51,723 bases of DNA from an uncultured Methanomicrobiales archaeon (lineage in GTDB: Archaea > Halobacteriota > Methanomicrobia > Methanomicrobiales > Methanospirillaceae). The stretch covers positions 1 to 51,723 of the forward strand of contig CAIYHQ010000112.1 of assembly GCA_903926075.1 (NCBI GenBank). Reading direction: 5' to 3'. Shown in pieces: positions 20,369 to 23,725 of the stretch. Every line of letters starts with the position of its first letter. Position 1 is the first letter of the stretch. A program made the translations under genes and the position numbers. The notes under the pieces were generated by a model. It saw nothing but the letters and a program-made list of their open reading frames with translations, was not told the origin of the DNA and did not search any database.

Positions 20369-20983
20369 ATGCTCGATCAAACCGAGGTCGCAAGAGTTCT
20401 CGACCTGCTCGGTAATAGAAATCGCAGAAGAATTATTGAGTTACTTAGAGAAAAGCCCTGTTTTGTTACAGAGATATCTGATCGTCTGATGATAAGTCCA
20501 AAAGCGGTTATCGAGCACCTTCAGATTCTTGAGCGGGAGGATATATTATCCTGTCAAACTGATTCCCGCAGAAGGAAATACTATTTTCTTCTCAACGATA
20601 TAAAAATTTCAATAAGTATTATAGAAAGTGAAAAAAAAGAACCTGAAACTGATATCAGCAATGAGCTGTCTTTTAATTTATTGCTTAAAAATTTAAAAAG
20701 ACTTACAAAACGAAGGGAAGATGTTGCAATCATGCTTCAGGCAATTGATGAATCACTTGAAGATATAATACGTGAACTTCACAAATCAGGAAAAGAATTC
20801 GAACTATTTGAAAGTGAAACAGATATTATTATTGCACTTGCCCATTTTCCATTAACTTTCAATGAACTTGTGCAAATACTTCACAATAACAATATCAATC
20901 TTCACGAAAACCTGAAACGACTTAAAAGTAAGAATTATATTCATGAAGATAAGGGACGTTATTACCTGGGGAGCTCAATTTAG
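20369..20983 (+). CDS. ArsR-type winged-helix regulator, HSR1-like heat-shock repressor
   Basis: A 204-residue DNA-binding regulator. The N-terminal winged helix (about 5-75) has the ArsR-type recognition segment VTEISDRLMISPKAVIEHL and the wing SCQTDSRRRKYYFLL. The middle is helical and may dimerise; a second helix-turn-helix-like segment (about 150-200, LTFNELVQILHNNNINLHENL) lies at the C-terminus. In Archaeoglobus fulgidus, HSR1 is the first gene of an operon that includes a small heat-shock gene and binds CTAAC-N5-GTTAG. Here the operator sits on the start codon and an Hsp20-like gene follows directly, so I infer an HSR1 counterpart. Ligand or heat sensing is not visible. Confidence 0.78.
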   Translation: MLDQTEVARVLDLLGNRNRRRIIELLREKPCFVTEISDRLMISPKAVIEHLQILEREDILSCQTDSRRRKYYFLLNDIKISISIIESEKKEPETDISNELSFNLLLKNLKRLTKRREDVAIMLQAIDESLEDIIRELHKSGKEFELFESETDIIIALAHFPLTFNELVQILHNNNINLHENLKRLKSKNYIHEDKGRYYLGSSI

Positions 20984-21244
20984 ATGAATTCTGTTGAAGG
21001 GGGGCAATGTCCATTTATTCCATATGAAATTGTTGAATCAAGTCATAATATTTATATTACTGCATTATTACCCACAGATAATGAATACCTGCCTTATGTT
21101 GATATTCGTAAAGACTCGGTAAAAATCTGCATTGAACCTTATGAGATAATTATTAAGCTCCCACATGAGGTAGATCTAATTCATTCATTTTATGAAATCA
21201 GACATAGAACATTAGACATCGTTATGATGAAATCTCAAAAATAA
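20984..21244 (+). CDS. Divergent Hsp20/alpha-crystallin-like protein
   Basis: An 86-residue protein whose ATG immediately follows the regulator's stop. Its pattern matches a shortened alpha-crystallin domain: HNIYITALLPTDNEYLPYVDI at the start, SVKICIEPYEIIIKLPHEVD and YEIRHRTLDIVMMK at the end, corresponding to the ADLPG-type strand, the LP..VD loop and the terminal NGVLEVxLxK strand. The usual Arg/Glu-rich loop and the I-x-I tail are missing. It may act as a small partner of the regulator, or as a reduced holdase chaperone. Function beyond the fold is inference. Confidence 0.68.
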   Translation: MNSVEGGQCPFIPYEIVESSHNIYITALLPTDNEYLPYVDIRKDSVKICIEPYEIIIKLPHEVDLIHSFYEIRHRTLDIVMMKSQK

Positions 21245-21266: not shown

Positions 21267-23465
21267 TTAGGTAATCGTTTTTACACTCCCCCTTGCATCA
21301 TATTTTAACCAGCCGGTAGAAAGTTTTTCACCGTCATATTCTTTAAATTGTCGTAAAGATACCGTCATGTCTCGGGTATATGCAAAGTAGCCGATTTGTG
21401 TGCTCCTGCAGAGTTTCATTGCCATATCCATAAGACCCCTTGGGTCTGGCCGTGCCTCTCCAAGCCAGATGTGAAAAATGTTACCGCCGTCTACTATCGG
21501 GAAAAAGACATGTTCAAGCCTCATTCGTTCTGCCAGAGTTATCTTTGCGCCTGGTGTCACATGTGTTCCATTTGTATAGTAAATTGGAAGGTCTCTTACT
21601 AAACCGATTTTCTCAAGGCCCATTTCGAGATCGCCTTTTATAACCTGCATTGCACATGATTTGTATTCTTTGTTAAGAAGATCAGCAACCGCAAACCTCT
21701 GACCTGTTGTTTCTGCGGGAGTCCTTGCAAGAGCAATTGTCATATCATGCATTTCAGAAAGTTCTCGCGAATATTGCTCAAGTTCGGTCATAACTCTGAC
21801 TGCAAGCCTGAAAGCGTCCTCTGATTCATGAATCTGGGAACCTGTAAAATACTGGACCATCTCATTTACTCCGACAACACCGATAGTATACACAAGCCCC
21901 TCGAGATCAACAGCAATTGCACCACGCTCTCCAGTAACCGGATCTTTTGGGCGCTGCATTGCAAAAGGCATTCTCCCTTTTGCACGAATAAGGTCCATCC
22001 AGCGTCTTTTTATCTTAAAAACTTCTATTGCAACATCCATTAAAGATTTTAGTTCTGCAATAAGAATTTTCAAATCACCTTTTGCACGATATGCAGTCCT
22101 CGGGAAGTTTAATGAAACAACCTGCCACGAACCCATACTGAAGTGTTTACCCTCTTCAAAGAAGAGTTTTCTATCAAAATCTGAGTCTTCTTCAGCAACT
22201 GCTGAAAATTGATATGCACAGCACTGATAGCAGGAGATCCCTTTTCCGGCACCCCGATAATCAGGTATCTGGTTGTCGTAATATGGAGTCCCGAATTTTG
22301 AAGCAAGTTCAAAAGTCAAAAGATACAATTCCTGATATGAAGGGAGTTCTGGGTGTTCTTCATTAAAGATCTTATCCTCTTCCAAAAATTCAGGTTCAAT
22401 GCTTATTTCGGGTTTTGGGAACGAGAATGGTTTCCCCCAGTAATCCCCTTCCAACATAACGTCCATTAATGCTTTGAAGAGAAGCCTGACTTCTCTCTCA
22501 AACTCGCGGTAAGTCCTTCTAGGAGAATCTTTTCCATCCCATATTTTACCTTTATAAACGCAGGGCTTATCTTTCCATAAGGTAGGGACCCCAGGACTTA
22601 ACTGAACTGAACTAAAGACCAGTTGTCCTCCACGCGCCACCATCATCTGTGTCATTTCGTACACAAACATCTGCATGTGCTGTCGGATCTCTTCATAAGG
22701 CATCCCTTCAAAGTATGGGGCTATAAAAGTAAGAAAATTATAATATCCCTGACCGCCGGCAAAGTTTGTCTGGGCACTTCCAAGAGCCTTAACTGCATGG
22801 AGAATTGCAACTTCAGGGCGTTTTGCAGGACCTGCAACTGATGCTTTGGTCCCATTCCCGTCTGGCATCAGACCATAATAGAAGAAATATCTGAGATCCC
22901 AGTCCTGACAGAATGGTCTCGTCCCAAAATATTCAAGATCATGGATATGTATATCGCCGAAAAGATGGCGGTCTGCAAGGTCCGGAGGCATCTGGAGAAG
23001 ATACTGCTCTTTACTTATCTTATCTGCCTTTTTTTTATGTGAAGTCTCAGCATTTTCCTGAAGGTTTGCATTGTCTTTCTCTTCAAACCCTTTCCCGACA
23101 TCTATCTGATGCGCATCAAAAACCGGAGTTCCTACCCGCGTTGATACATTCCTATACTGTACCATCCCCTGTTCAAGTAGCGTAATATTCATTATCTCCC
23201 TAATGAGCGGGCCTGACAACGAAGTTAGCCCAAGCCCTTTTATCCTTTGCTCGACGCGTCTTGAAATGTCCCGCGCTTCTTCGATGGTTGCACCATGGTA
23301 TCCATAGAATGTCTCAACAAGGGTTGTTTCTTTTAATATCTGGGCGACAATTCGCTCCCGGTCCCATTCAAGGATATGCCCGTCTGATGTCCGGACTGGT
23401 GGCATTAATGATAGAAAGACTCCATTGAGTGTAGACTGCCGGGTTTGGTTTGTCACTGGTATCAA
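21267..23465 (-). CDS. nrdD: Class III anaerobic ribonucleotide reductase NrdD, apparently lacking the glycyl-radical tail
   Basis: Reduces ribonucleotides to deoxyribonucleotides in anaerobes. The 732-residue protein has an ATP-cone (about 22-110), the 10-stranded barrel with SCYQCCAYQF (about 409-418, thiol site) and segments GDIHIHDLEYF and GVNEMVQ. The conserved block IGYFAYTRDMTV is normally followed by a Cys4 zinc site (CxxC...CxxC) and a terminal RVxGY glycyl-radical loop. Here it continues SLRQFKEYDGEKLSTGW to ARGSVKTIT and stops, without any of these cysteines or motif; the adjacent reading frames do not restore them. Start: TTG 23465 overlaps nrdH's stop; GTG 23456 and an ATG near 23405 are alternatives. 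No activase gene (nrdG) is nearby. Confidence 0.88.
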   Translation of the reverse strand: MIPVTNQTRQSTLNGVFLSLMPPVRTSDGHILEWDRERIVAQILKETTLVETFYGYHGATIEEARDISRRVEQRIKGLGLTSLSGPLIREIMNITLLEQGMVQYRNVSTRVGTPVFDAHQIDVGKGFEEKDNANLQENAETSHKKKADKISKEQYLLQMPPDLADRHLFGDIHIHDLEYFGTRPFCQDWDLRYFFYYGLMPDGNGTKASVAGPAKRPEVAILHAVKALGSAQTNFAGGQGYYNFLTFIAPYFEGMPYEEIRQHMQMFVYEMTQMMVARGGQLVFSSVQLSPGVPTLWKDKPCVYKGKIWDGKDSPRRTYREFEREVRLLFKALMDVMLEGDYWGKPFSFPKPEISIEPEFLEEDKIFNEEHPELPSYQELYLLTFELASKFGTPYYDNQIPDYRGAGKGISCYQCCAYQFSAVAEEDSDFDRKLFFEEGKHFSMGSWQVVSLNFPRTAYRAKGDLKILIAELKSLMDVAIEVFKIKRRWMDLIRAKGRMPFAMQRPKDPVTGERGAIAVDLEGLVYTIGVVGVNEMVQYFTGSQIHESEDAFRLAVRVMTELEQYSRELSEMHDMTIALARTPAETTGQRFAVADLLNKEYKSCAMQVIKGDLEMGLEKIGLVRDLPIYYTNGTHVTPGAKITLAERMRLEHVFFPIVDGGNIFHIWLGEARPDPRGLMDMAMKLCRSTQIGYFAYTRDMTVSLRQFKEYDGEKLSTGWLKYDARGSVKTIT

Positions 23466-23725
23466 CCTTTGAAGGTTTTTATTATCTCTTCCTTAACCAT
23501 TCCATTAAAAAAGAGATCTTTGGATGTGTAAAATTTTGTTCCAGACTGAAGAACCGGGGCCTCACGAACAAAAATTCCATTCATACGCAGTTCGGTGATA
23601 TTTTCAATGGATGCCATATCATATTCGTGATAGGATATATTGTTCCGGTTCAGTTCCTCCTTTAAAATTTCGCAATTTGGACAATTTTCAAGGGTATATA
23701 CAATACACGAATCATTCTCTTCCAT
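23462..23725 (-). CDS. nrdH: NrdH-like glutaredoxin
   Basis: An 87-residue thioredoxin-fold redoxin with the active-site CPNC (residues 15-18, in TLENCPNCEILKEEL), a cis-proline segment (EAPVLQ) and a C-terminal helix. NrdH-type proteins deliver electrons to ribonucleotide reductases; a related redoxin with a ferredoxin disulfide reductase was shown to serve the class III enzyme of Methanosarcina barkeri. Its stop overlaps the TTG start of nrdD (TTGA), so the genes are translationally coupled. A purine-rich GGGGGA ribosome binding site precedes the ATG at 23725; a TATA-like ACATATACATT (reverse strand) lies upstream. Confidence 0.87.
   Translation of the reverse strand: MEENDSCIVYTLENCPNCEILKEELNRNNISYHEYDMASIENITELRMNGIFVREAPVLQSGTKFYTSKDLFFNGMVKEEIIKTFKG

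Follow-up and report, generated by a model that had tools for sequence, protein, structure and literature searches.

The class III ribonucleotide reductase (RNR) of an uncultured archaeon of the Methanomicrobiales is very probably an enzyme in two pieces: its NrdD polypeptide would form the catalytic barrel, while the glycyl radical would be borne by a small free subunit that docks on it in trans. Judging from comparative sequence evidence, a separate small protein almost certainly supplies the missing radical domain across nearly the whole order. The truncation of NrdD, the free domain, the co-occurrence of the two, a single NrdG scoring over its cut-off and the lack of any other reductase in the genome are directly established. 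Ribonucleotide reductase is an essential enzyme, and its class III forms have been treated as bearing the radical on their own C-terminus; their full-length versions need no free radical domain.

The gene for the catalytic subunit lies in a stretch of 51,723 nucleotides (the window), and its features are collected in Table 1. In a profile search PF13597 covers the protein at positions 1-511 of 562 (E 2.8e-131), and its TIGR02487 score of 461 bits, against a cut-off of 326, indicates that the catalytic barrel of the NrdD family is present. The residue immediately following the YTRDMTV block corresponds to the first cysteine of the zinc site in full-length NrdD. A sequence-only reading of this DNA had claimed that the protein stops before the zinc site and the radical loop, and both the end of the profile match and the cysteine-free tail bear this out. 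Its further claim, that no neighbouring frame supplies the missing part, also held: only 22 bases separate the nrdD stop from the next open reading frame (20984-21244, plus strand), and the motif R[VIL][TVSA]GY occurs in none of the six frames across the whole window. The zinc site and RVxGY loop that a single-chain class III NrdD carries in the same polypeptide are absent from this one. The NrdH partner noticed in that reading was recovered as a glutaredoxin with a CPNC motif beside nrdD. An ArsR/Phr-like regulator and an 86-residue open reading frame (window 20369-21244, plus strand) are convergent to nrdD, and a similar regulator and small frame adjoin nrdD in Methanoregula SKADARSKE-2 (L197:4052-5087).

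Table 1. The nrdD gene of the window and its parts (window coordinates)
Feature	Position	Strand	Remarks
NrdD catalytic subunit without glycyl-radical domain	21267..23465	minus	TTG start, 732 aa; PF13597 and TIGR02487 matches
Finger loop SCYQCCAYQF, residues 411-420	22206..22235	minus	two adjacent cysteines, as is typical of NrdD3
KLCRSTQ with Cys686	21396..21416	minus	sequence comparison of truncated and full-length NrdD
YTRDMTV, residues 696-702, last conserved block	21360..21380	minus	sequence and alignment with full-length NrdD
Variable tail, 30 residues, no cysteine	21270..21359	minus	occupies the place of the zinc site and RVTGY loop of other NrdDs
NrdH-like glutaredoxin (CPNC)	23462..23725	minus	4-base overlap with the nrdD start

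The alignment with other NrdD genes of the order that the sequence-only reading had called for gave the same end point in all 31 genes of this subtype that were examined. A class-wide search of 199 genomes likewise placed the end of the match in the order at about profile position 510-516 of PF13597. The 31 proteins terminate about 25-45 residues past the [FY]TRD block, with tails that vary in length and sequence and lack a conserved glycine motif, whereas full-length homologues of other families continue TVCMDDFH...CPNCGS..V..SRVTGY after the same block. The position of the first zinc-site cysteine is occupied variously by Ser, Cys or Ala in the truncated genes, as expected of a site that is no longer used. 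Core identity of the window protein is 75-81% to other truncated NrdDs and 65-70% to full-length ones, and the SCYQCCAYQF motif is common to all truncated homologues listed and most full-length archaeal homologues. One residue distinguishes the two forms: Cys686 of the KLCRSTQ segment is kept in 31/31 truncated proteins, against an alanine in 20 of the 21 full-length proteins, and may thus be an adaptation to the free radical subunit, perhaps for docking. The NrdH gene adjoins truncated nrdD at 29 of 30 loci of relatives, while nrdG adjoins nrdD at none of 30 truncated loci versus 12 of 30 full-length ones. In a tree of the NrdD core a weakly supported branch (SH-aLRT 54) sets all truncated forms apart, and a single origin of the truncated form appears likely. 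In-frame insertions of about 450-550 aa are found in many of the order's truncated nrdD genes, though not in that of the window; the insertion in one gene (L176:1-3156, genome G013) matches LAGLIDADG_3, with an intein splicing domain match below cut-off.

Searching the same genome with PF13597 brought up two places with complementary coverage, namely the window gene (1-511) and an open reading frame on another contig (G000:C20:10139-10498, minus strand), which encodes a 120-residue protein matching profile positions 503-562 (E 2.8e-15). The latter frame lies well within its 48.7-kb contig. The free protein contains a CxxC-x4-CxxC (Cys4) site, an SRVTGY glycine loop and the GWN segment typical of class III enzymes; ahead of the Cys4 site it has an additional N-terminal segment resembling a zinc ribbon (CFTC...CPKC), which shows a weak likeness to the zinc ribbons of Spt4/RpoE'' (E about 0.3). 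Run against the Protein Data Bank, a profile built from ten free-domain proteins picks out one NrdD, 8p23 (E 8e-8), with the alignment falling at CPKCGSHHIDKLQRITGYL. Because PF13597 is matched, in this genome as in 32/32 free-domain members, and PF01228 (the YfiD/GrcA family) has no match in the genome, we assign the free domain to the NrdD family rather than to YfiD/GrcA. The sequence-only reading had suggested looking for a free YfiD-like domain: it was right as to the architecture and wrong as to the family. Of the other genes it proposed to search for, NrdG was found, and neither a second nrdD nor another RNR class was.

Among the 80 named relatives' loci, drawn from Methanoregula, Methanospirillum, Methanolinea, Methanoculleus and Methanofollis, every free protein keeps the Cys4 site and the whole SRVTGY..GWN loop. 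The gene is part of a conserved gene block (deoxyhypusine synthase, pyrF, free domain, a cysteine-rich 275-aa protein, DUF1858 and a replication-factor-A-like protein; 70-78 of 80 loci), and nrdD, nrdH and nrdG are found within 6 kb of it at none of the 80 loci. The neighbouring 275-aa protein (contig C20 of the same genome; L002:665-1492, minus strand) has a C-terminal PF04071 cysteine-rich domain at 74/80 loci, and no other named family was detected in it. An AlphaFold model of the free protein, based on a 32-sequence alignment, has a mean pLDDT of 68, with moderate values over the N-terminal 90 residues and values near 40 in the radical loop; a Foldseek search with this model gave no significant match. 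A disordered loop would fit one that becomes ordered only on NrdD, though it proves nothing, and the model speaks neither for nor against docking.

The distribution of the two genes ties them together. The free domain is present in 74/74 genomes of the order with truncated NrdD, a figure tallied by hand from the tables for genomes sampled in both searches. A single genus (g25) is without truncated NrdD; its nine genomes give just two weak free-domain matches (E 3e-4 and 3e-5), NrdG2 exceeds its cut-off in 0/8 of its genomes, and class II NrdJ is present. Free domain, NrdD and NrdG have thus been lost together in this genus. The window's own genome, which is 96.9% complete, has no class I or II large subunit, and the PF13597 search revealed no second or full-length NrdD in it; it has one NrdG2 over the cut-off (TIGR02495, 134.8 bits versus 131.15; G000:C111). 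The zinc site and radical loop and the NrdG activase of a two-protein class III enzyme are therefore all encoded in it.

Most relatives also have class II NrdJ, and PF02867 is missing from 11 of 120 genomes of the order. The clearest of these 11 is the complete chromosome of Methanoregula sp. SKADARSKE-2 (CP121470.1), whose genes for NrdG, the free domain and the truncated NrdD lie far apart, at 0.043 Mb, 0.647 Mb and near 1.71 Mb respectively; this NrdD has 727 aa, and no other reductase was found. Ribonucleotide reductase is the only route to de novo DNA precursors. For this reason, and as far as gene content can tell, the two-piece enzyme must be active in this organism, unless the symbiont subsists by salvage of deoxynucleosides. 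The lack of another reductase in the window's genome provides an independent argument that the split enzyme must work there too.

These data bear on several other ways of accounting for the short NrdD. The gene might simply be broken, whether by frameshift, assembly error or decay to a pseudogene, with the organism using another reductase. A class III enzyme without the radical glycine cannot work alone, and the NrdJ of most relatives would offer a replacement; yet homologues throughout the order, closed genomes included, end at the same point, which led us to reject frameshift or assembly error, and the core is conserved at 75-81%. Neither a second full-length NrdD nor a class I or II enzyme that might substitute is present in the genome, and the closed chromosome of Methanoregula, whose only reductase is truncated in the same way, refutes this account, to which we give practically no credence. 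The inactive gene that the sequence-only reading had entertained is not supported, on the same grounds.

Slightly less remote, but still extremely improbable, is the idea that some other enzyme uses the free domain and that the NrdD tail bears a radical site of unknown kind. The free-domain gene does lie apart from nrdD, in the company of pyrF and deoxyhypusine synthase. Against this, the tail varies in length and sequence and has no conserved glycine motif, the free domain is itself a member of the NrdD family, and the genome contains no further glycyl-radical protein (PF01228); a YfiD-type domain was for that reason also rejected as the missing part. The different tail chemistry raised in the sequence-only reading becomes unnecessary with an ordinary radical loop encoded elsewhere in the genome. 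It is also very unlikely that the free domain is a mere spare part, as YfiD is for pyruvate formate-lyase (PFL), and that the truncated NrdD draws on another radical source. Such a role is plausible in the archaeal families f8, f24 and f36, where similar free domains occur beside full-length NrdD, but the NrdD of the Methanomicrobiales has no cis domain to be spared, the free domain, NrdD and NrdG disappear together, and no alternative radical source was found. The remaining possibility named in that reading, a radical domain provided in trans, is strongly supported by the free Cys4/SRVTGY protein, by its co-occurrence with truncated NrdD and by the genomes in which the pair is the sole reductase.

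For such a two-piece enzyme, homology suggests the following sequence of events. The free 120-aa protein would fold on its own zinc sites, and the radical SAM activase NrdG would abstract a hydrogen from the glycine of its SRVTGY loop, generating the glycyl radical. The small protein would then dock on NrdD at the place that the cis domain takes in other class III enzymes, possibly through its N-terminal zinc ribbon and Cys686 of NrdD as candidate docking elements, so that the loop would come to lie beside the finger-loop cysteines (SCYQCC). A thiyl radical on these cysteines would start ribonucleotide reduction, and NrdH, the likely reductant, would supply electrons and reset the active site, as for NrdD3 (PMC9176816). 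An additional function of the free protein is conceivable, as free domains also accompany full-length NrdD in other archaeal families. A bolder proposal, which we regard as possible though somewhat short of an even chance, is that the order uses a diffusible radical subunit, activated by NrdG off the reductase before it docks, so that radical loading, replacement after damage and possibly regulation would be separate from catalysis, with a possible descent from a spare part.

Several known systems offer partial parallels. The NrdD3 subtype is defined by a QCCR/A loop (PMC9669993), and work on Methanosarcina barkeri NrdD3, as cited in PMC9176816, gives NrdH/ferredoxin disulfide reductase as its electron source. 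By a definition taken from these two papers (QCCR/A loop, no loop Met, NrdH partner), the truncated NrdD, judged by its residues and neighbours, retains the features of NrdD3: a finger loop of this type, no active-site Met in the loop and an NrdH partner. It resembles NrdD3 in its QCCA finger loop, the NrdH gene beside nrdD, the NrdG in the genome and its core identity to full-length archaeal homologues, and differs in that their zinc/radical domain is in cis, whereas in the present case that domain forms a protein of its own, extended by an N-terminal zinc ribbon. NrdJa/NrdJb of Pseudomonas aeruginosa, a split class II RNR, was in 2015 called the only split RNR outside viruses (PMC4520616). 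There, too, a zinc-binding domain from the C-terminus forms its own polypeptide, which has to join the catalytic one, but that enzyme uses the cofactor AdoCbl, its small subunit performs thiol exchange and not radical storage, and its genes form one operon, unlike the unlinked genes here.

YfiD/GrcA and Y06I of phage T4 are spare parts of PFL, the only enzyme for which spare parts have been validated; by their authors' account, YfiD and Y06I are the sole autonomous glycyl-radical proteins to have been validated (PMC8683613). Like them, the present protein is a small autonomous glycyl-radical protein that would complete a large enzyme in trans after the action of an activase; but they are PF01228 proteins that repair an oxygen-cut PFL which had its own domain, whereas the NrdD-type domain here is the sole one and presumably always needed. 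We found no description of a split class III RNR in the open-access literature searched, a scope that left out the 2015 M. barkeri NrdD3 paper; as prior mention there is possible, absolute novelty is not claimed.

The free NrdD-type proteins of families f8, f24 and f36, mostly 118-131 aa, occur in genomes with full-length NrdD and look like candidate class III RNR spare parts, by analogy with YfiD and PFL. Such proteins are found at L185, L186, L187, L188, L189, L190 and L193 (genomes G227, G373, G365, G471, G298, G321 and G443), and include open frames of 88 aa (G471) and 194 aa (G321). It is plausible that a spare part came first and that the cis domain was then lost in the ancestor of the Methanomicrobiales. 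At L191 (G345:C2:2108724-2108915) an open frame of 77 aa contains VSRVTGYYSHVNQWNPGKK but has no complete zinc site; it may be what is left of a formate-type NrdD.

The question of whether any glycyl radical enzyme besides PFL is served by an autonomous glycyl-radical protein has been posed explicitly (PMC8683613), and the free domain described here is a candidate answer. Annotation hides the split, the truncated protein scoring well above the NrdD cut-off. The pair offers a natural system for studying radical loading apart from catalysis. These methanogens make the building blocks of DNA with NrdD alone or with NrdD and one other enzyme; nearly the whole order appears to have moved the radical site of this enzyme to a separate protein, and in some species the resulting pair would be the sole route to DNA precursors.
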